From contig CAIIXF020000006.1 of the NCBI GenBank assembly GCA_903813345.2, positions 14,636,348 to 14,700,347 on the forward strand: a stretch of DNA of 64,000 nucleotides. The letters are read 5' to 3'. Below are positions 16,881-46,000 of this stretch, piece by piece. The notes below the pieces were generated by a model. The model saw only the letters and a list, made by a program, of their open reading frames with translations, had not been told where the DNA came from and ran no database searches. A program made the position numbers and the translations under genes. The stretch comes from Owenia fusiformis (Eukaryota; Annelida; Polychaeta; Sabellida; Oweniidae). Position 1 is the stretch's first letter. Every line of letters starts with the position of its first letter.

Positions 16881-17097
16881 TTGATTTAGCTTTTGACTGG
16901 TACAGAGCTCCGCTCGTGATATTTTGTAAATTTTGACAATTTTGACTTTGTTGGACTTTGACATTTTCTGTACATGATAACTTCGACTTAGAATATTTCT
17001 CACTGGCACTTGGGAATATTCTTTGACTTTGTTCTGTTCACATGTACCTGGCTGTAGACGAATCTACTTGAGGTTAAACTTTGGCAAAGTCAATTTA

Positions 17098-17680
17098 GTT
17101 GGACTTGTACATTTTTCTGTGGATGATAACTTGGACTTAGAATATTTTAATCATTTTCAATATTCTTTGACTTTGTTCTGTGATACATCTACCTGGAGTT
17201 GGACTTGTACATTTTTCTGTGGATGATAACTTGGACTTAGAATATTTTAATCATTTTCAATATTCTTTGACTTTGTTCTGTGATACATCTACCTGGAGTT
17301 GGACTTGTACATTTTTCTGTAGATGCTAACTTGGACTTAGAATATTTTAATCATTTTTAATATTCTTTGACTTTGTTCTGTGATACATCTACCTGGAGTT
17401 GGACTTGTACATTTTTCTGTGGATGATAACTTGGACTTAGAATATTTTAATCATTTTTAATATTCTTTGACTTTGTTCTGTGATACATCTACCTGAAGTT
17501 GGACTTGTATATTTTGCTGTGGATGCTAACTTGGACTTAGAACATTTCTTACTGGCACTTCGAAATATTCTTTGACTTTGTTCTGTGGTACATCTACCTG
17601 GAGTTGGACTTATACATTTTAGTCGTTTATACTAACTTGGACTTAGAATATTTCTTACTCACACTTTGAAATATTCTTCG
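17098..17680 (+). repeat. 100-bp tandem array, about 6 copies
   Basis: Units of 100 bp start with TTGGACTTGTACATTTTTCT at 17099, 17199, 17299 and 17399. The first copies are nearly identical and later ones diverge. No unit-spanning ORF is seen. The array shares TTGACTTTGT and TTGGACTTAG words with the next array, suggesting common origin. Confidence 0.85.
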
Positions 17681-17704
17681 ACTTTGTTCTATTTGAAGTT
17701 TGAC

Positions 17705-19400
17705 TTAGATAATTTATTGTGAAACTTCCTCACTGAAGACGTTCCAGTTGACTTTGTCGAACGGACTCACTGAGGCTGGGTCTTTATTTTAGCGACTTTG
17801 TCGAACGGACTTCCTGAGGAAGGTGATCCATTGGACTTACCCGGAGGAGGCTACCTGAGGGAGACGTTCCAGTTGACTTTGTCGAACGGACTCACTGAGG
17901 CTGGGTCTTTATTTTAGCGACTTTGTCGAACGGACTTCCTGAGGAAGGTGATCCATTGGACTTACCCAGAGGAGGCTACCTGAGGGAGAAGAGGATCCAT
18001 TGGACTTAGCCAGAGGCTACCTGAGGGAGAAGAGGATCCATTGGACTTAGCCAGAGGAGGCTACCTGAGGGAGAAGAGGGTCCATTGGACTTCACCGGAA
18101 GAGGCTACCTGAGGGAGACGTTCCAGTTGACTTTGTCGAACGGACTCACTGAGGCTGGGTCTTTATTTTAGCGACTTTGTCGAACGGACTTCCTGAGGAA
18201 GGTGATCCATTGGACTTACCCAGAGGAGGCTACCTGAGGGAGAAGAGGATCCATTGGACTTAGCCAGAGGCTACCTGAGGGAGAAGAGGATCCATTGGAC
18301 TTAGCCGGAGGAGGCTACCTGAGGGAGACGTTCCAGTTGACTTTGTCGAACGGACTCACTGAGGTTGGGTCTTTATTTTAGCGACTTTGTCGAACGGACT
18401 TCCTGAGGAAGGTGATCCACTGGACTTAGCTGAAGAGGCTACCTGAGGGAGAAGAGGATCCATTGGACTTAGCCAGAGGAGGCTACCTGAGGGAGAAGAG
18501 GATCCACTGGACTTAGCTGAAGAGGCTACCTGAGGGAGAAGACGTTCCAGTTGACTTTGTCGAACGGACTTCCTTAGGAAGAGGATCCATTGGACTTAGC
18601 CAGAGGCCACCTGAGGGAGAAGAGGATCCATTGGACTTAGCCAGAGGAGGCTACCTGAGGGAGAAGAGGATCCACTGGACTTAGCTGAAGAGGCTACCTG
18701 AGGGAGAAGAGGATCCATTGGACTTAGCCGGAGGAGGCTACCTGAGGGAGAAGAGGATCCATTGGACTTAGCCAGAGGAGGCTACCTGAGGGAGAAGAGG
18801 ATCCATTGGACTTAGCCGGAGGAGGCTACCTGAGGGAGAAGAGGGTCCATTGGACTTCACCGGAAGAGGCTACCTGAGGGAGACGTTCCAGTTGACTTTG
18901 TCGAACAGACTCACTGAGGCTGGGTCTTTATTTTAGCGACTTTGTCGAACAGACTTCCTGAGGAAGGTGATCCATTGGACTTAGCCAGAGAAGGCTACCT
19001 GAGGGAGAAGAGGATCCACTGGACTTAGCTGAAGAGGCTACCTGAGGGAGAAGAGGATCCATTGGACTTAGCCAGAGGAGGCTACCTGAGGGAGAAGAGG
19101 ATCCAATGGACTTAGCTGAAGAGGCTACCTGAGGGAGAAGACGTTCCAGTTGACTTTGTCGAACAGACTCACTGAGGCTGGGTCTTTATTTTAGCAACTT
19201 TGTCGAACGGACTTCCTGAGGAAGGTGATCCATTGGACTCAGCCGGAAGAGGCTACCCGAGGGAGAAGACGTTCCATTGGACTTAGCCGGAGCAGGCTAC
19301 CTGAGGGAGAAGAGGATCCACTAGACTTAGCCGGAGGAGGCTACCTGAGGGAGAAGAGGATACACTGGACTTAGCCGGAGGAGGCTACCTGCACGAGACA
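17705..19400 (+). repeat. Compound satellite with 41-44 bp subunits
   Basis: The subunits are centred on GGATCCATTGGACTTAGCC and GGCTACCTGAGGGAGA. They are interspersed at least five times with a longer block containing CTTTGTCGAACGGACT and GGGTCTTTATTTTAGC. Subunits vary between 'CCAGAGGAGG' and 'TGAAGAGG' forms. No ORF persists across units in either strand. Confidence 0.85.
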
Positions 19401-22900: not shown

Positions 22901-25900
22901 ATGTGTTTTTATATTGTTGTCAAGTATCAGTTGCATGTTATCGCGGAAAAATGGTTTCGGTGGATCCAAAACTTGCATCAATGGAAAGAATAGTAAGGAG
23001 GTTAAACTCAATAATGGCCCCAAGAAAATTCTTAATAATAAATAACGCCGTTATTGAGTTTAACGACGTTGAACTAAAAATACCCACGCTTTTCATATTG
23101 TAATTCGTATCTTCTGTTGCATCGAGCAAAGTAAAGAAACACATATCTACTCCCACATACTCACATTGCCTTCCATTAAAGAAAACCTTCTAAAAGTTTA
23201 GTAGTCAATAAATATCAGATCTGTAAATTCCGAAATCAGAAGCAAATTCAATAAAAACCAGATTAGAATGCACAAATACCGGATCACTGATTATTTCAAT
23301 GAGGGACCTGTTAGATGTTGCACCAATAGTCCATTGGTCACTCTTAGAATGAGCCAAGTATTGGATGATTGGAGGCAGTTTTGATCAATTTTGCAAAGGG
23401 TTAATTTTATTCTCATCCGTCTCAACAAAACAGGAATATCCCAGAATTCATACAGGCATACTTTCTTATGTAAACTATATCATTGATTGGCCAAGGGTTC
23501 ATCTATAATCCTGGGAAATGACCTCTTCTGGAAGTAAAGTTTGGGAACATCTGATAATATGACCAGTTCACATGGCAGTGTGTCACCTGTCATTTCTCTG
23601 TAATGATGTACACCTTCCTCCTAAAGATTTGAAACAATTGTAGTACAGTAAAACCTGTATATCTGAACACTTGGCTAATCCGAAAGATTTAAACATTTTA
23701 TTGGTTCCGTTCTTCCTCCCACTGACTCAAATGTTAAAAAACCTTGAAATGTGAACACCTCCCAATTTGAGCAGTGTGTTTGAAAAATTAACCTATCTTA
23801 TCTGAACACTTTTCATAAAATATCACATGTCCCATTCAAAATTGCTCAAATATTTGAAAAAACCTTGAATGATCTCACTCATGGTGGGGCTTTCTAGGAT
23901 GACTAAATTCATTTGAATCAGATTTTCATGTCACTTGAGTGTAATGCCATAAAGCTATATGTAGTCAAAAGAACTATAAATATTTATTGAGAATTTGTTC
24001 CTATTTCTTCAAAATCCAAAATCTTGCAAATGCAAAACCTCAAAATGTGAACACCTCCTAATCCAAACGCTTTTAGCTGGTCTCTCGGATTAGACAGGTT
24101 TTACTGTAGGTACAATCCCCTCTAAAAGTTACTGAAATCACTGGCTAGGAATTGTTCACTTACACACAGTTGTTGAATAGCAGGCCTGTCAACTGTCCCG
24201 CAATTTGCATATTTGTCACGCATTTGCTGAAGAATTCGAAGTCACGCCAGTTATTTGTGCGTGACAAAAAATGTCACGCAAATACGCATTTTACCTGGTA
24301 ATTGTCAAGCAAAAATATTTCTGTAGAAAAATTTCTAAAAGATCGTCTACACAGCAAAAATACGAACTAAGTTGTTATTATCATGATCATGATCATACCA
24401 AGAGTCATTTCTGGCATTGAAGTCGCCATTAATAAAGATCCCGTTGTTGGGATGCAAAATAACCTGGGACAGGTTAACTTTTAAGTTAGAAAAATACTGC
24501 CTAGTTTCATTTGCACTCTGTGAGGGTGATCTGTAGAAAAACCCATATAAATAGGTTTTATGACTCACTTTAACTTCAGCTAAACAGTTAACAAGGTCGA
24601 GCGATCTAAACTGATCAAGAATTTTTATTTGAACTGAGCCATGCCCCCATCAGATTAAACCTCTTCCATGGTTTGTACAAAATTTAGGCGGTCCAAAATT
24701 ATTTAAGTCAAAAGTTTTGAATTTTAAATCGTCATCCGTAACATTGCCTGTTTCGCAAAGAGCCACAATATGCACATTTTCCTTAGCCACATACTGTTTG
24801 AGATAATCACATTTATGGCCACCGGGTCCCAACATGCCATGTTCTGCCATGTTGCCAAGTGGTACTATCTACAAGATGCAGTCACTTGGCATATACTTGT
24901 TAGTAACATGGCAATATTTTAGCAACCTTTCTGACAACATGCTACTGGTCTAGCATGTGAAAGACAGAGCAACTGGCTCAGCATGGCATGTTGAATGTGC
25001 AAGTGATTATTCAAGATTTATTCTAGATTAGAACATGTACTATTTTGGTTGGACATGGCATCTTGTTTTAGCATGTGTACATGTATCAGAATGCGAGTAC
25101 TGCCATGTTCGCATGTTGGATGTGCATGTTGATTTTACATGTTGCATTGGCATACTTGCCATCTTATATTTGCATGTGTGCCAAGTACCTTGATTCAAGT
25201 GATCCCAAGTTCACATCTTACCAAGTACAGCATGTTGTCATGTGATAAATATAGCTACTGGCCGTAGCATGGCATGTTGGATGTGCATGTTATAATAATG
25301 TCCATTAATGCTCTACATGGTTCTACTTGCCATCTTGTATTAGCATCTGTACCATGTACTAGAAATGTTGGTGGTGCCATGTGTGCATGTTACCAAGTTC
25401 AACAGACATAATCATTTATTAATCCTGGCAATGATCTTTATTCATACATTGTATATGTGTTGGATGAACATTGTGTCAATGATACATCACACTGATATTT
25501 TACATTTTCTTATGCTGTATTTTAAACTTGACTCTATAACTTATATTTTTGCATTTGTCATGTTGTTTACATTATGTATTTTGTAGTTAGTTTAGTCTAA
25601 GTTATTTTTGTATATTGTACATTGTACTGACTAATATGTCATTGTGATGACATCTGAGTCAATAAGAGATGTTCATGAACGCTGCTCCTGCCAAGTACAC
25701 ACTTTATCATAAGGGTCTGGTACATTATCGCCGCTCCTGCCAAGTGGACCTTGTATCATTAGGGTCTGGTACGCGATCGCCGCTCCTGCCAAGTGGACCT
25801 TGTATCATTAGGGTCTGGTACGCGAATTCCGCACCTGCCAAGTGGATCCTGTATCATTAGGGTCTGGTACGCGAATTCCGCACCTGCCAAGTGGACCCTG

Positions 25901-28900
25901 TATCATTAGGGTCTGGTACACGATCGCCGCACCTGCCAAGTGGACCCTGTATCATTAGGGTCTGGTACACGATCGCCGCTCCTGCCAAGTGAACCCTATA
26001 TCATTAGGGTCTGGTACGCGAATTCCGCACCTGCCAAGTGGACCCTATATCATTAGGGTCTGGTACACGATCGCCGCTCCTGCCAAGGTGACCCTGTATC
26101 ATTAGGGTCTGGTACACGATCGCCGCTCCTGCCAAGGTGACCCTGTATCATTAGGGTCTGGTACGCGAATTCCGCACCTGCCAAGTGGACCCTGTATCAT
26201 TAGGGTCTGGTACACGATCACCGCCCCTGCCAAGTGGACCCTGTATCATTAGGGTCTGGTACACGATCGCCGCTCCTGCCAAGTGGACCCTGTATCATTA
26301 GGGTCTGGTACGCGTCCTGTGTCCTCAGTGGGTTGGTCAGGGTTAGGTAATCATTTAAAACCCCATCTGGTTTAATAGGGATGGGGTTGATAATTAGGGT
26401 TAGGGTTAAGGTTACGGTTAACTCATTTCACTTTGCAGGAGCGGCGTTCATGTGCCAGAAGCTACTGATAGCGATCGCTGCTCCTGCCAAGTAGACCCTG
26501 TATCATTAGGGTCTGGTATGCAAATGCCGCTCCTGCCAAGTGGACCCTGTATCATTAGGGTCTGGTACACAATCGCCGCTCCTGCCAAGTGGATCTTGTA
26601 TCATTAGGGTCTGGTACGCGAACGCTGCTCCTGCCAAGTGGACACTGTATCATTAGGGTCTGGTACACGATCGCCGCTCCTGCCAAGTGGACCCTGTATC
26701 ATTAGGGTCTGGTACACGTCCTTTGTCCTCAGTGGGTTGGTCAGGGTTAGGTAATCATTTAAAACCCCATCTGGTTTAATAGGGATGGGGTTGGTAATTA
26801 GGGTTAGGGTTAAGGTTACGGTTAACTCATTTCACTTTGCAGGAGCGGCGTTCATGTGCCAGACCCTACTGATAGCGATCGCTGCTCCTGCCAAGTAGAC
26901 CCTGTATCATTAGGGTCTGGTATGCAAACGCCGCTCCTGCCAAGTGGACCCTGTATCATAAGGGTCTGGTACGCAATCGCCGCTTCTGCCAAGTGGATCT
27001 TGTATCTAGTACGTGATTGCCGCTCCTGCCAATTTGACCCTGTATTATTAGGGTCTAGTATGCGTCTTGTGTCCTCAGTGGTTAGGTCAGGGTTAGGTAA
27101 TCGTTTAAAACCCCATCTGGTTTGATAGGGTTGGGGTTGGTAATTAGGGTTAGGGTTAAGGTAAGAATTAATTTTTTTTATTATCTATTGACACAGAAGT
27201 TTATTGTATTTATGTAATTCATTTTTTTTATTTATTTCATATTTTTGACACACAAATCATGGTCTTAGGGTTACGTTACAGTTAAGGTTAGGGTTAAATT
27301 CATTATTTGGTGTCAAATTCATTTTTTGGATTTTTTTTACTCCCAAGTTTATTGTATTTATGGAATTCATTTCTTTATTTTTTTGACACACATATTCATG
27401 GTCTTTTTGGGATGTTTTGACACAGTTTCGTGGTCTTGATGGAATTCATCTTTTTGATTGTTTTGATATTGCACAAGTTCTGGATATACCTCGTTGAGAA
27501 AACATGCAGTCTTCACTATTTTCCTTATTTTAAAGTCCCCGTGTTAAGTTTGAAAATATCTTTTTATCATTCATTTACTATTTGTCGTGACTTTAAAAGT
27601 TATTTTAGAGATTTTTTGAAAAAAGTTGTAAGCTTTTTTTTCTCACTTCAATGTTTTAGCATATCGAAAATATTTTGCACCCTAAGTCAGATCTGCCAAC
27701 CTGAAATTGGTTTTGAACGAGGTCATGGTGACTTATACTTGATTCTGTGATATGAAGAATAGGTTTTAGTTAAATGAATAAGGAAAACAAAAGAATATGA
27801 CAAAAATTAATGAGTAATAAGGCTGATTATTTGACAAGTTGGCCCTGAACAAGTATTATGAGGGTTCCTTTGCTCGCTCAGTTTTTACAGAAAAATACCT
27901 ATATTTCCTTAAAAGAAAGAAGTCCAATAATCATAATAATTATTTTAAAATGCTGTAGATTTAGCTCAAACACGGTAGATTAAGGGAGATTTCAGTCAAA
28001 AATACGGGAGGTTATTACGGCCATTTTCACGGGAAAAAATGGATTCAAAAAAATTAAGGTACATTTTAGTAGAAGTACGGTACGGGAATTAACAGTAGTT
28101 TAACGGGTTAAAACGGTATGGGAGTTTTGTTATATTTACGGGAAAACAAAATATTTTTTCTCGCCTATTTTTGAACCAATTTTCTTAATTTTTCCCCAAA
28201 ATCATGTGAGGATGAATGCTATGCATTGGTGTGAATTATCGCTTATTAGAATGTATGTTGCTAACTGTAATATCTAAATATACAGATTTTCAATTCTGCA
28301 TGAATACAGTTATATTCTTATTTCTACTTATTCAAGAATTCAAGATGTTTCTGAGCAGGGAGCCTACATAGTGAACTAATTGACACTCAGATTAGAACAT
28401 TAGTACAAGGATACTATTATGTTCACATGTGTTTAGAATTGTGTTAGAATTGTATATGATACAGTGATATGCTGTTCATAGCTTTGTAATATTAACAAGT
28501 TAATGAACTTTACTGGACAATTATTCCATAATAAAATCATCTCTCTACATAATAATTTATTCTCTGCAATCTATTTTTGTTTTATGAGAACATAGTTAGT
28601 AATCTATTATTATCATATTGAAAATTTTTACATGTTTTAAGTCGCAGTGAATTCTAAGAAATAATGCAAAGGCAAAGTCAAATCGCTCATGGAATTCTTT
28701 AAAAACAGCCCCCCGCTTCCATCCCTGGCAAAAGCTGAATACTGGCCTGAGAGTGGCAGAATACTAATGTAGTCAGTGTAGTTAGTGTAGTTAGTGGTCA
28801 GCTAACCTAGAATATTGTAGAGGATGATTTCTTCATATGCTTACTACAAAGCTCAAACTTATATATTGTTTATTGTTTCTTTTATTCCCGAAAATTAATC

Positions 28901-31900
28901 GGAGCAACAAACATAATAATTACAATACAGTTACTTTATACAATAGAGATGTATAGTTTAAACTTTGCAAGATGCTACTCGGACATGCAACATGGCAGCA
29001 TGTCACTTGCTAACTTGGTCCACATGTTGCACATGCGAGATGTATAGTTTAAACTTGGCAAGATGCTATTCGAACATGCAACATGGTAGCATGTCACTTG
29101 CTAACTTGGTCCACATGCTGCACATGCGAGTTGTATAGTTTAAACTTGGCAAGATGCTATTCGAACATGCAACATGGTAGCATGTCACTTGCTAACTTGG
29201 TCCACATGCTGCACATGCGAGATGTGTAGTTGAAACTTGGCAAGATGCTACTCGGACATGCAACATGGCAGCATGTCACTTGCTAACTTGGTCCACATGT
29301 TGCACATGCGAGATGTATAGTTTTAACTTGGCAAGATGCTATTTGAACATGCAACATGGTAGCATGTCACTTGCTAACTTGGTCCACATGCTGCACATGC
29401 GAGTTGTATAGTTTAAACTTGGCAAGATGCTATCTGTACATGCAACATGGTACCATGTCACTTGGCAACTTGGTCGACATGCTGCACATGCGAGTTGTAT
29501 AGTTTAAACTTGGCAAGATGCTATCTGTACATGCAACATGGTACCATGTCACTTGGCAACTTGGTCCACATGCTGCACATGCAAGTTGTATAGTTTAAAC
29601 CTGGCAAGATGCTATCTGTACATGCAACATGGTACCATGTCACTTGGCAACTTGGTCCACATGCTGCACATGCGAGTTGTATAGTTTAAACTTGGCAAGA
29701 TGATATTTGAACATGCAACATGGCAGCATGTCACTTGCTAACTTGGTCCACATGCTGCACATGCGAGTTGTAAAGTTTAAACTTGGCAAGATGCTATCTG
29801 TACATGCAACATGGCACCATGTCACTTGCTAACTTGGTCCACATGCAGCACATGCGACTTGTATAGTTTAAACTTGGCAAGATGCTATTTGAACATGCAA
29901 CATGGTACCATGTCACTTGCTAACTTGGTCCACATGCTGCACATGCAAGGTTTATCATTGAGACTTTGATAAATTTAAATATGGGACATGGCAGCATGTG
30001 ACTTGTAACTTGGTCCACATGCTGCACATGCGAGTTGTAAAGTTTAAACTTGGCAAGATGCTATCTGTACATGCAACATGTCACCATGTCACTTGCTAAC
30101 TTGGTCCACATGCTGCACATGCGAGTTGTAAAGTTTAAACTTGGCAAGATGCTATCTGTACATGCAACATGGCACCATATCACTTGCTAACTTGGTCCAC
30201 ATGCAGCACATGCGACTTGTATAGTTTAAACTTGGCAAGATGCTATTTGAACATGCAACATGGTACCATGTCACTTGCTAACTTGGTCCACATGCTGCAC
30301 ATGCAAGGTTTATCATTGAGACTTTGATAAATTTAAATATGGGACATGGCAGCATGTGACTTGTAACTTGGTCCACATGCTGGGCAACGTGTATACCTCG
30401 TACTTGGCAAGATGCTAATTGTACTTGGTGCACATGGCATGTAGTACCCCGGTGGCCTTAGCTGGATAATCAAGGCGGTTTAATGAATCTGCTTTCACAC
30501 TGTTGATGTTGTTAAATAGCACCTTTAGATTATTATCTGGTCCTGGCTATTATAGAATCATTTTTAGTCAGCACATGATCGTAAGCTTATAATAATTACT
30601 GTCACATTTAATGTCTCTTTACTAGAATGAACCATAAAACTGTCATTCTGTTGTTGTCTTCATTTTGAAGTAGAAACTAATTTGTTAGAGGACGAGTTCA
30701 TTCTGGTAAAAAGACATTAAAAGTGACAATAATAGCTTGTGCAAGCTGAAAAAGGTTCAAATAATAGATACCCAGTTTTTAGATACCCAGTTTTTAGGTA
30801 CCCACTTTTTCAACATGGTATGGGGTATCTAGCTTTATTCCCACATGCAGGATTTAATACCCAGTACCCTGTATCCAGTTTTTTCTACAAACCCAAAAAA
30901 ATTCTAAAATGGAAACAATTCTTGCCAAGAGTTCTTGTAAGGATCTTGCTAGACCTGATTTTTCCTTTAGGGCCTACCTTGCTATGGCAAAAATGGTAAT
31001 CATATTCATTGTTGCATTGATACTTCAGGTAATCAACATCATTTGCCAGTCCAATAGAAGAGTTGACCAACAGAATTAGGCAGGCAATAGACACCATCAC
31101 AATTGACAAGACCATAAATGCGATGATCTACAAAATAAAAGAAATGTGTCCAAATATGTGACTACTAGTGTTCAAATACCAAGTATCAAATCCTCATCTT
31201 TATGTTATGTTTATGTCTTATTTTAAAATACACAAACAGAGATATTATATTAGCTGTTTTGAAGGTTGCTTACCAAACATTTTGATTTTGATCTGCCTGC
31301 AGCAATGCCAAATGATCCAGTCAGTATAAAGAACTACAATTATATAAATAAATTGTTAACAAATGAGAGATAACATTGTTGAATTAACTGAAGCATTCAG
31401 TCCTCAGAAAAAGTGTTCCTATGAGCTTAACTTGAACAGGAGATGTACACAACTGTCTGCAAATAGATTTAATCTACAGGGTGACCCCAAAAACTGAACA
31501 CTCCAAAAATGAAATAATTTCTTAATACACATGTAATCTTCATTTTTCATGTACTGAAACTGCAATCTATGGATGACAATGTGAGGGCAAATATGTTACA
31601 TAGCATTCATTTTTCTTGTTATGGTCAATTAAAAATGTGCCCTTTTGAAAGAAAACAAAATGTAAGGTTTTCATGTCAACCAAAAGTTTACACATCGTTT
31701 GTCTAAACCAATCACATTCATTTACTTCCTTTTTTAAGCTTTTGTGAGTATGGTGATTGAGATCATTAATGAGGAAGTGTCCCAGCAACCTTTAAGCCAT
31801 CTTTAGGTATGGCTGCACCTTCTGAGTGATACCTTGGAACTGCATTCACTGCAATCATACACTGTACTTCAGGCCTGTCAACTTGGGAACACATAACATG

Positions 31901-40000: not shown

Positions 40001-43000
40001 AGTGAAAATACAATAGTTATAGGCTAAGAGCAATTTTACAGACATACAATACACAGCTGACTATCACTACAATAGGCAACTTTACAATGGCGACAGCGAA
40101 AGAAGAAGAGACTTCATCTGATGACCTAAAAATGACACTTACATGTAATCATTGTAAGGAAATATACAAAGATCCAAGATATCTACCCTGTTTGCATACC
40201 AACTGTCTAGGATGTATTGAAGAATTGGGTAACAGTAATAAGGCCACAGGAGTTTTTGAATGTCTAACATGCGAGCAATTGTGCCCCATTACAGGCCCTG
40301 ATGGTAAAGGGTTCAAGGTAAATTACAAGGCAAGTGCCTGGTTGGATGTTTATCAGAATACACAGCAAAGCAATGGTGAACATAACTGTGATATATGTAT
40401 ACAGATGGGTAAAACCATCCCCGCTGTTTCCAAGTGCATGGGGGGATGTGATGAGAAATATTGTGAGACGTGCAAGGACAATCATAGACTATCTCGTCTA
40501 ACAAAAGAACATTTCCTCCTTGACCTGGGAGGTGCTGACATTGACAAAGTTATCAAACAACTTTCTGAACGAACAATTTTCTGCGAAGAACACGATAACA
40601 AAGCTCTTCAGTTCTACTGTAACACTGATCAATCTGTATTCTGCCAATCATGCCATATCACTAAACATTCAGGCCACGATTATGAGGATATCCAAAGAGG
40701 TGCAAATTCGAGATACGATGACCTTGTTGAGGTTATTAACCAGCAGGAGCAAGACTTGAAACAATATCAACATGCCATCAATGCGTGTCAACAAGCCATT
40801 GAGGACTTTGAAAATGAGACAAAATCATGCATTGAATCACTTCAGAAAGATAAAGATGAAACAATCACAAAAATAGAATCCCATTACGCAAAACTAAACC
40901 AGGAAGTAGAAGTCAAGAGCAGAATTGTTATTAAGAATATCAAGTCTGAACTTGACAATTTTAAAAGCGAACAAGATGCCATCAGAATTTCTAAAAAGGA
41001 ACTTTGTGATCTTGGCCATGTAGTCGAGATTGCTAATTTGATTCCTGAGATAAGAACCAGAAAAGAAGCATGGGTTAACTCAACCCATTTTCATATTACA
41101 AATGACTGCTATATAAAACCTATCCTCAGTGCTAATAATGATAACAATATAGAGCTCCCAAAGCTTGAAATATGCAATAGATTCAAGATAAATGAAGGCT
41201 CCAACCATTTCATTGACAATAATCAAGATATGATAAGCAATGAAGAACTATTGAACAGTGTGGATCAGACAAATTCAAATGAAGTTGAAGAAGAGACATA
41301 TGAATCAAGCGCTATGGCACAACCAAGTATATTCTTTAGGATTAAAGCTAGATTAATACCACAAAACAAAACTACAAGCTCAAAGAATCTTCCAATTGAA
41401 GAAAGGACACTCGATCAGACAACATGTATAAGATCTCTGTGTGGGGTTTTAATGCATAAAATCAGCAAAGGTAAAATAATTTCCCATATTGCTGGTTTAG
41501 GCAAGGACACAATAGTTCTGGTGAAGGGGAAAACTACAATGGAAAGTATAATACTGGATGAAAACTTTAAAGAAAAAAACAACTTTTGTAAATGTGGAAA
41601 ATGCAGGTCTGTGGTAGTCACACATGATCGATGTATTATATTGCTGCACGATGAAGGAATTGATATCTACAAGGAAAATGGAAATTGGCAACGTAGGATA
41701 GAACGTCCTAAAGGCCTTCGATGTGTGAATATTGCTATGAATAATTACTATAGTGAACTTATTGTTGCTGACACAAAAACAAACACAATTGTGTACATTG
41801 ACTATAACACTGGAGAGGTAAATCATAAAACCCAGGCCCAACCACCTATATTTGCTGAATGCAGTGAAGGAGAAAATATCGCTGTCAACCAAAACAATGA
41901 TCTCATAGTGAGTTCTATGGAAAAGAAGAGTGTTACTGGGTACAATAGCAGGGGAGTTCAGATATTACAGTATACTGGCGAGGGTGTAAATATGCTGTCA
42001 TCACCAGCTGGTATATGTGTGGACAAGAATAACAACATCATAGTTGCAGACACAAAGAAAGATAATGTACAACTTCTTTCACAAGATGGAACATTCCAGA
42101 AAATCTTACTTTCCAGTAGAGAAGGGTTACAGTGCCCATGCAGTGTTGCAGTCACTAATGATGGGTACTTATTGGTGGGTAATAGAGTTGGAGATATCTT
42201 CAGAGTCAAGTATTAAATCTGTGAAGCTTATTTTGCCATTATCAGGCAAAATAACAGTGCCAAATAAACAAGTACATGTTATATAAAGTAAATTCACAAG
42301 GTGTGTCCAATTTAAGTCCAATCAGAACACACTGTTTTACGCATTTCAATAAGGCATTTGTTGTATGAGTGCCAAGGTGTTAATGGACTCACAGATTGAA
42401 ATTGATACTTTGCCAACTTGACCCTTCCAAAAGGTTTCATTGAAAATATGTTCTTTTAGAGATTATGTTGAAAATATTTTGCAATGAGTGAAAAGCATTT
42501 AAGCCCAAGAATCAATGTATTGTGGCTGCTTCTTTCCACCCAGGTGGGTCCTAAACTTTGCATTCTTGCTGCGCAGCATTGCAAAGATTTGAAAACAACA
42601 CCTTCAATGGAATGATTCAGCATACAATGCACTGAGTCCAGGATTTATCCCTGTTAAATCAGATATAGAACAAAAATTAGCAAGGCATAAGATGCAAATT
42701 GTCACCACCTGCCATTTGTTACAGATACCACCTCTGTTAAATCAACCACCAAATGCCAAACCACTGAACACCGTCCACAAAAAAGTTTGAGACCATAACA
42801 ATATGTAACATCTTGTAGTCACATAATAAAAAGTATGTTTAGAATAAAATAACAATATTTCTGTTAACAGTAAATGTATGGTAAAGTGAAGAATCAGATG
42901 TTGAACTTAACTTTGATTGAACCTCCTAAAAATACCCCAACAGCTTAGTCAATATAAACTACGACTGGGTCAAATGGTGCAATATGTAACTCAAAATTGG

Positions 43001-46000
43001 GTTTTTGACATCAACTTATTTGGTAATTAGACACCTAAAGACAAGATATGTCAGGTCAATATTGGTGACATATTGGGGCTATTTTCAAAGAAGTTTCATT
43101 GATGCGTAACAAAAAATTTCAATTCTGATTGATGTCTGCACCCATTTCCGTGATTTTTGAAGTTAAACAATTGATTATTTTCAAAATCAGAAAGTACCTT
43201 TAGAGCTAGGTCCACAGCCTCTTCATACAGCCCCATAGTTGAGTAGATATGTACACATGCCCTCTGATGTTTGTGTTCAGCGCATAGTCTTAGGGCATAC
43301 TTTAGATCATAACACACACTGTCAGACTCCTGGAATAAAAACAAATCAGAAAGTCGAAATTTGAATTTCTAGTCAAGTTGTATCTCCAATATCCATCCCA
43401 AATTAAATCCCATTACACATTAAGCAAGAAATATCCAGAAAATCTGTGGTCAATAGCACACTTAGTCTTGCTTCAACTATCCTTGATCGAGGAACATAAA
43501 ATGGAGCATGTAATTGTGAATATAGACATGTCATCAAATATATTTTGCCAGACTGTCCATGTGTATCCAATGTGAGAGATGACCTGTTGAATGAAATCAC
43601 AAATGCACTTGATGTAATAACATCTACTTCACTTCTTAATGGGGATGAAGATGTTTTAATTAAAGAACTTTTAAGTGGCAATTCTGATGTTCAATATACT
43701 AATGATGACATCTCTGAGCAATTTATTTTGAGGAGTGTATCATATAGGTGTTAATAAATTGGATAAAATGAAAAAGTAAACAAAGCTAAAACTAACCTGT
43801 CCTTGAAAGTTCAAATAGGTCATAAGTTGTTCTGGTTTAAGTTTAGCATACAGAGAGAGTAAATAGTTGTGGATTGACTGTTCCTGGCAGTCAAGGGTCT
43901 GTACACAGAATTCAAGGTACCTTATTGCTGCATTGCCCTACAAATACATAGTCAAGAAACACTCAAGGTACCTTATTGCTGCACTGCCCTGCAAATACAT
44001 AGTCAAGAAACACTCAGGGTACCTTATTGCTGTATTGTCCTACAAATACATAGTCAAGAAACACTCAAGGTACCTTATTGCTGCATTGCCCTACAAATAC
44101 ATAGTCAAGAAACACTCAAGGTACCTTATTGCTGCATTGCCCTGCAAATACATAGTCAAGAAACACTCAAGGTACCTTATTGCTGCATTGCCCTACAAAT
44201 ACATAGTCAAGAAACACTCAAGGTACCTTATTGCTGCACTGCCCTGCAAATACATAGTCAAGAAACACTCAAGGTACCTTATTGCTGCATTGCCCTACAA
44301 ATACATAGTCAAGAAGCATATTTTATAATTCATTAGGTTTTTAAGATTGAATTTATTTTGCTTCATGAGAATTTAGTCCATCTTAGATTAAAGCATTTAA
44401 AGTAGACCAAGCAGAATGAATATTCTAATTAAGGTGGGTCAAGTATTCTGTCTCTTTAAATTATTACAATTCATGTCTTTAACAATGCAGTTATCTCCCC
44501 AGCATAAAAGCAAGTGGGCGCAGCACCCATGTGAGATTTTAAAAACAGACTTGCACCCACCTGAAAATCCATTTGCACCCACTTGAAAATGAGAGAAATC
44601 ATGAAACATTGGTATATTTTGACCAATTTTAGTCCAAATAGTGAAAATGAGAATTTTGCACACACTTGACAAAAAATCCTATGGAAACACTGCAATGTGA
44701 CACTAGAAGTAGTGAAAGAAATTAATTATTTGCAAATTAGCAACTAAAGTCACATATTAATGAAATAACAATAACCATTTAATCAGTATTCTGATGTTGT
44801 CTGGATTACGTCCTGTATTCATGTACATAGACCTACCTGTGTTTTGTATTTAAGGTGGTCATATTGGACTAGAGCTGGAATGAGGCGTTTGGGGTCTAGA
44901 TTACGTCCTGTATTCATGTACATAGACCTACCTGTGTTTTGTATTTAAGGTGATTCATGTAAATAGACCTACCTGTGTTTTGTATTTAAGGTGGTCATAT
45001 TGAACTAGAGCTGGAATGAGGCGTTTGGGGTCTAGATTACGTCCTGTATTCATGTACATAGACCTACCTGTGTTTTGTATTTAAGGTGGTCATATTGAAC
45101 TAGAGCTGGAATGAGGCGTTTGGGGTCTAGACTACGTCCTGTATTCATGTACATAGACCTACCTGTGTTTTGTATTTAAGGTGGTCATATTGAACTAGAG
45201 CTGGAATGAGGCGTTTGGGGTCTAGATTACGTCCTGTATTCATGTACATAGACCTACCTGTGTTTTGTATTTAAGGTGGTCATATTGGACTAGAGCTGGA
45301 ATGAGGCGTTTAGGGTCTAAATTACGTCCTGTATTGATCCATGCATCTACTGTAAGTTCTGGAATATTCTGCATCAAGAGAGGTGAGAACTTGTAGAGAA
45401 GCTCCTTGTCAGGCTGGAATGGAATATATTTTAATAACTGAATTGACACGATGAAGTCACTCTACTGATGCAACAAGGGTCTCCAATAATAGTATCGACC
45501 TTAGGGTACTCTGTTTTAAGCCACTATGGTGAAAATAATTACAGCTTATTTTAATTTGGTATTTTCATTAGTTTGAATAGTTTCCATACCTGTTTGACCA
45601 GGACCTCCAGTGCTTTATCATATTGCTCATGTTGCAAATGGTGGCCTATCACTCGCTCAAAATCTAAAACAAATCAAAAAATTGGTTGATGGGAAAGCTT
45701 GCAAAATGGGACTTTTTTACTTAAATGACCTACAATGTTTGAATTTCATTAGATAATGATCTGTAATTTGCACCATCAATAAACTTTGGTACAATACTTT
45801 CATCTTTGTGACGTGGATAATTGAACCGAATCTGGCCAGTTAATGAAGATTACCTTTCATAAGGACGGCAAAGTAGACCATATCCTCCACATCCCCATGG
45901 CTTGCTATCAAATCATATATTGTGTTCCTATTGCCATCTACACATTCCTATATAATGATAAAATAAAAAAGAGCAAATGATAAGTGGCCAATAACGCATT

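Follow-up and report, generated by a model that had tools for sequence, protein, structure and literature searches.

Probable mirage minisatellites at both splice sites of a VPS18 intron, with similar arrays at other exon edges of the same lophotrochozoan genome

Minisatellite-like duplications of intron-exon boundaries are described in the globin genes of lancelets and had earlier been named "mirages" at Adh3 (PMC3087553). According to that report, the number of units differs between haplotypes, Adh3 shows somatic instability, and the Adh3 and RT-PCR data suggest regular splicing, with the mechanism unclear (PMC3087553). Further lancelet mirages are described in the troponin C and PGBD5 genes, the latter having repeats at both the 5' and the 3' splice sites (PMC3902484). 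In both papers the mirages are reported as not disturbing splicing (PMC3087553, PMC3902484). Exon-edge repeats as a class also occur outside lancelets: duplicated human genes have variable tandem repeats, some of them at exon-intron boundaries, that are said to give rise to novel introns and to switch on cryptic splice sites (PMC2812944). Introns can also be gained by the tandem duplication of exon sequence bearing AGGT, for example in the potato RdRp gene (PMC4974935).

The window, the 64-kb stretch of DNA analysed here, encodes VPS18 on its minus strand. When the exons were joined, the peptide matched solved Vps18/Pep3 chains (best E 2e-10, residues 1-97), and the match spans the exon join. 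The genome searches covered an assembly of 498 Mb in 525 contigs. With the PF05131 profile at E <= 0.1, six matches were listed and all six lie inside the window; VPS18 is therefore apparently single-copy at this sensitivity. No second copy of the VPS18 locus was found among the genome matches listed (40 of 2,307 candidates scored, one assembly). The gene adjoins an intronless 709-aa open frame at 40087-42216 that is TRIM-like, with RING, B-box and NHL matches. Other large minisatellites of the window lie at 25680-27006, 28946-30304 and 17097-19391 (49 bp x 21, 91 bp x 15, and 100 bp x 5.8 with a complex array). The features of the VPS18 intron are as follows; exons carry the numbering of the original prediction, and the limits of exon 16 were set by hand from AG/GT signals and homology.

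45258 to 45413, minus strand: VPS18 exon 16, 52 codons, ending ...HLKYKTQ; peptide matches Vps18
44801 to 45335, minus strand: donor array, 95-bp units of exon end and GTAGGT donor; six donors; 78 exon nucleotides in common
45257, minus strand: putative productive donor, G of GT; the sole donor keeping the frame
43938 to 45257, minus strand: intron, 1,320 bp if the innermost sites are used
44479 to 44702, plus strand: dispersed repeat within the intron, about 220 bp, unrelated to either array
43912 to 44315, minus strand: acceptor array, eight 51-bp units, each running from the intron end through a TAG or CAG acceptor into the exon start; 26 exon nucleotides in common
43938, minus strand: putative productive acceptor, G of TAG
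43797 to 43937, minus strand: VPS18 exon 17, 47 codons, starting GNAAIRYLEFC; peptide matches Vps18

It had been predicted that about six copies of the donor in a 95-bp array and eight copies of the acceptor in a 51-bp array, unrelated to each other, flank one 1.3-kb intron, and both arrays were found as described. In the donor array, Tandem Repeats Finder (TRF) reported positions 44817-45088 with a 136-bp period (98%, score 530) and, in a second overlapping row, 44953-45335 with a 95-bp period (97%, score 731). At its intron end the array starts with a partial unit of 16 bases from 44801. All six donors share ACACAG/GTAGGT, with the G of GT at plus-strand positions 44836, 44931, 44972, 45067, 45162 and 45257, and one unit is shortened to 41 bp. 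The inner full units carry GTT and the first and last GTC, with few differences overall; compared over 33 bases, four of the five decoy donors have the same sequence as the productive one and the fifth differs by a single base. The acceptor array was reported at 43912-44315 (51 bp x 7.9, 95% matches, score 752). As had been proposed, its units share the start of the exon, but over 26 bases and not the 24 predicted. From the intron side inward the acceptors read TAG, CAG, TAG, CAG, TAG, TAG, CAG, TAG, so that five are TAG and three, all distal, are CAG while the productive one is TAG, again as predicted.

The expected reading frames were likewise borne out by hand reading. Beyond the productive donor the frame reads V-G-L-C-T-stop, the stop after five codons foreseen for the distal donors. 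The 51 bases of the acceptor unit make 17 codons and keep the frame, which from any decoy acceptor is closed no later than the innermost unit, by its TAG. Of the 48 donor-acceptor pairs (6 x 8), a single one is productive, and every decoy leads to an in-frame stop. Judged from the sequence, only the innermost donor and acceptor would give an in-frame junction with a Vps18 match spanning it. Two other sources of the repeats were set aside. Mutually exclusive exons would need a second splice site and an exon body, which the units lack. Transposon-borne repeats were considered, and neither unit matched elsewhere in a search that scored 40 of 2,307 candidates with common words skipped and hence does not establish absence. 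The dispersed repeat at 44479-44702 has at least 41 other matches listed on 12 contigs, at 82-91% identity (40 of 2,307 candidates scored).

The same structure was observed at other genes. In a search with the kinesin motor, 18 copies of one exon piece appeared at a spacing of 159 bp (locus L031, G000:C2:23266359-23269174). The DNA at this locus forms an acceptor array that passes, through its last copy, into the intact exon, and the decoy copies inspected end in an in-frame TAA. An SNF2-domain gene, which we take to be ISWI-like (L032, G000:C2:4915297-4916006), has an acceptor array of 137-bp units with five acceptors. These two were the regularly spaced arrays spotted in the match lists of five families (kinesin, at least 144 matches with 122 of 218 candidates scored; myosin, at least 93 with 65 of 210 scored; SNF2, 80; adaptin, 42; TCP-1, 66), by a method that is blind to short exon parts. 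In a TCP-1 family gene (L040, G000:C11:134450-142950), three arrays lie at exon edges (96 bp x 4.2, 53 bp x 20.2 and 28 bp x 16.6), and the 53-bp unit also forms a detached block. The kinesin gene L005 (G000:C6:34538629-34541856) has acceptor arrays of 42-bp and 93-bp units at two exons. By eye, 7 donor and 10 acceptor arrays were seen at exon edges (n = 17), with units of 28-159 bp and 2 to about 34 copies. One myosin-head exon has twelve matches at G000:C9:37986009-37994334, irregularly spaced by 300-2,000 bp; these are perhaps alternative exons of a muscle myosin rather than a minisatellite.

The frequency of such arrays was measured in loci chosen from the coordinates of protein-family matches before repeats were looked at; VPS18, L031 and L032 are outside this sample. 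The TCP-1, adaptin and SNF2 families contributed 32 loci (151,270 bp, 137 of 188 family matches), matches being left out for their size or scatter and, in the case of the SNF2 gene of L032, as already known. The kinesin family contributed 27 of 30 loci from its best matches: three that overlapped others (L011, L021 and L027) were removed, and L013 and L018 both stayed in despite an overlap of about 1 kb. In the whole sample of 59 loci (239,527 bp), 327 exon edges were mapped and 49 were unmappable. Each exon end was moved to the strongest splice signal close by, as scored with signal weights. An array was defined by a period of 25 bp or more and 2.5 copies or more, and it was scored as crossing when an exon edge lay inside it with 8 or more bases to either side. 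The null was the random placement of one unit, and the P values treat arrays as independent.

With refined ends, 11 of the 31 arrays in the 59 loci crossed an exon edge, against 2.6-2.7 expected (P about 1e-5). Counted by locus, 9 of 22 crossed against 2.64 expected (P 4e-4), and when L040 with its three arrays was removed, 8 of 26 arrays crossed against 2.46 (P 0.0017). Lowering the threshold to at least 1.8 copies gave 13 of 41 against 3.39. About 3% of the sampled exon edges carry an array (11 arrays, 327 mapped edges), so the two arrays on one VPS18 intron, striking in isolation, are less remarkable here. The excess is tied to the refined exon ends. With the unrefined profile ends of the 32 loci it was 11 of 27 against 3.39 expected at 1.8 copies or more (P 1e-4), and 7 of 22 against 2.8 at 2.5 copies or more (P 0.014). 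In the 59 loci, under a different crossing rule, unrefined ends gave 7 of 31 against 3.43 without a margin (P 0.046) and no excess with a 30-bp margin (3 of 31 against 3.76). The profile ends were replaced by splice-site-refined ones because profile hits overrun the true splice site into the array.

A replication was done with myosin genes (8 loci, 36,708 bp, 39 of 93 matches), with settings fixed when the loci were fetched. One of two arrays crossed an edge against 0.08 expected (P 0.07), which is not significant alone, and at 1.8 copies or more one of five crossed against 0.20 (P 0.19). The 13 arrays scored as crossing were all inspected by eye. At L062 the scripted edge differs from the edge judged right, both being within the array, and the 48-bp array of L036 is diverged, with GT kept in one of four copies. 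Seven of the 21 arrays scored as non-crossing across the two samples were also viewed, hand-picked rather than drawn at random. Three of these do cross an exon, one that the profile match does not cover (L005 93 bp, L026 and L069), one is the detached block of L040, and three are intronic (L016, L029, L056), as is the array of L047, which was viewed as well. The exon crossings outside profile matches make the 12 of 33 found by rule a likely undercount.

Signs of selection on the decoy sites were sought in the 17 arrays seen by eye, VPS18 included, where five of the six VPS18 donors were counted under the spacing rule. GT or AG is kept in 155 of the 161 counted copies. Letters of the splice dinucleotides were changed in 7 of 322 cases and those of their neighbours in 146 of 5,589, which gives no difference (P 0.86) among copies that are not independent; by columns, 4 of 34 were changed against 79 of 594 (P 1.0). 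These array-restricted counts replaced a looser one of 12 of 346 against 221 of 6,001, which had also taken in a small number of matches lying outside arrays. The arrays that have diverged most, L036 and the 28-bp array of L040, account for all seven changes. In the remaining 15 arrays, 0 of 284 splice letters were changed, against about 3.2 expected at the neighbour rate (about 2 of 30 by columns); this hints weakly at retention and tells against strict neutrality. Six of the 17 unit lengths are divisible by three, as by chance, which fits units that stay out of the mRNA. The exonic share of the unit (mean 0.56, P 0.29) has no significant bias; the value of 0.04 for the 28-bp array of L040 comes from a diverged neighbour copy. 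Overall, there is no clear selection on the decoys.

We consider it highly probable that the VPS18 arrays are mirage minisatellites, tolerated repeats in which the exon-proximal site wins. We infer that splicing is normal here, and expansion could have proceeded as follows. A short segment across the exon edge would be duplicated in tandem and would then grow by slippage or unequal exchange. The copy attached to the exon body would stay intact, whereas the extra copies would fall into the intron and be removed with it, so that conserved genes can carry dozens of near-perfect decoy splice sites. The inner site probably prevails through exon definition across the length of the exon itself and, in the case of donors, also through being transcribed first. 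Decoys equal or nearly equal to the productive site may, on sequence grounds, be used to some degree. The original prediction had offered two readings of the arrays, slippage that is tolerated and a splicing rheostat. The former is favoured by the recurrence at unrelated genes and by the lancelet reports, and the latter found no positive support; the VPS18 arrays are real, but locally ordinary where such arrays are common.

In a rheostat, the number of decoy copies would set the share of productive transcript, the remainder being lost to nonsense-mediated decay. This could explain why all decoys lead to early stops and yet keep consensus sites, why the decoy donors are so close to the productive one (four of five identical over 33 bases, one with a single difference) and why the 15 less diverged arrays have no change in 284 splice letters. 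However, early stops are likely to arise by chance in intron sequence, the splice dinucleotides overall are not retained better than their neighbours, and multiples of three are not over-represented among the unit lengths (6 of 17). The structure is also found in unrelated genes, at donors as well as acceptors and in copy numbers from 2 to about 34, and the lancelet counterparts are reported as not disturbing splicing (PMC3087553). We therefore regard a rheostat at VPS18 as improbable. About equally improbable is that the units are on their way to new exons or introns. Such an intermediate is suggested for the lancelet mirages (PMC3087553), the 51-bp unit preserves the reading frame, and CAG replaces the stop-making TAG in three of the eight units. 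But the innermost unit keeps TAG, so no decoy gives an open reading frame, and the lengths of the 17 arrays are not biased to multiples of three. That the assembler produced the repeats is scarcely credible, since the units differ by point changes and one shortened copy, and arrays of the same kind are present at many loci on different contigs.

Tolerance does not by itself account for the position of the arrays. A neutral model with random placement fails to predict the edge excess, and a further bias, mutational or selective, is needed. We lean slightly towards exon edges in this genome being preferred sites where minisatellites arise or persist, with a few percent of conserved-gene boundaries carrying arrays of near-perfect competing sites. 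A mutational cause, in which tandem duplication favours edges (for instance by way of chromatin or of breaks linked to transcription) and selection purges fully exonic arrays, is a tentative possibility that falls somewhat short of this. It would agree with the 11 of 31 arrays at edges against 2.7 expected and with the hits on both edge types (7 donor and 10 acceptor arrays of 17), and is not favoured by the exonic share of the unit, which has no clear bias (mean 0.56, P 0.29). Such a cause adds to the explanation by tolerated mirages rather than competing with it.

In the literature searched, mostly outside subscription journals, we found such arrays reported neither in annelids nor in any other lophotrochozoan, nor any tally of where arrays lie relative to exon edges; as far as this literature shows, the lineage and the excess at exon edges are new. 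In the Hox region on contig C1 a homeodomain is followed by EKLTGP, the Lox5 signature of lophotrochozoans, and amphioxus was set aside as the source of the DNA partly on this ground. The presence of mirages in a lophotrochozoan suggests that they are no lancelet peculiarity. If the edge excess is true, a process links exon boundaries to tandem amplification, and if it holds genome-wide, it points to an unknown link of exon boundaries with the birth or survival of repeats. The choice between identical splice sites is usually studied with engineered duplications. The natural arrays lie at both kinds of splice site in conserved genes and have from 2 to about 34 copies; they are splice-choice experiments in themselves and offer a test of how the spliceosome chooses among up to about 34 near-identical sites. 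If only the innermost sites are used, this would be direct evidence for site choice across the exon. In annotation, such arrays yield false exons and isoforms. Worth following up are the edge excess and the opportunity that these genes give to study splice choice in natural experiments.

The minisatellite of the human interferon-induced gene 6-16 (IFI6, G1P3) resembles the VPS18 donor array in that each unit holds a donor site. It differs from the present arrays in its short units, its restriction to a single gene and a repeated donor that is said to be used in the transcript. The human variable tandem repeats lie in recent paralogs within segmental duplications and have units that average 30 bp in about four copies, half of them coding (PMC2812944). 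Intron gain through AGGT duplication is similar in that a tandem duplication copies splice signals (PMC4974935); there a new intron is made, whereas here the edge of an existing intron is amplified and no new intron is implied. The lancelet mirages (Adh3, troponin C, BflGb6/BflGb9, PGBD5) come closest, and the VPS18 arrays, as far as their anatomy can be read, appear to share four features with them. The units likewise span the exon-intron boundary. In mirages the 5' or the 3' boundary of the intron is affected, and VPS18 has both. The authentic copy adjoins the exon body, which at VPS18 is apparent from sequence alone, and the reported units of 10-160 bp include those of VPS18 (51 and 95 bp) and of the 17 arrays (28-159 bp). 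Boundary units that escape homogenisation are a further trait of mirages; in the 95-bp array of VPS18 the first and last units are set off from the inner full ones by GTC against GTT, with few differences overall. The lancelet examples are from cephalochordates; those described here are from a lophotrochozoan, reach about 34 copies and come with a measured excess over random placement.
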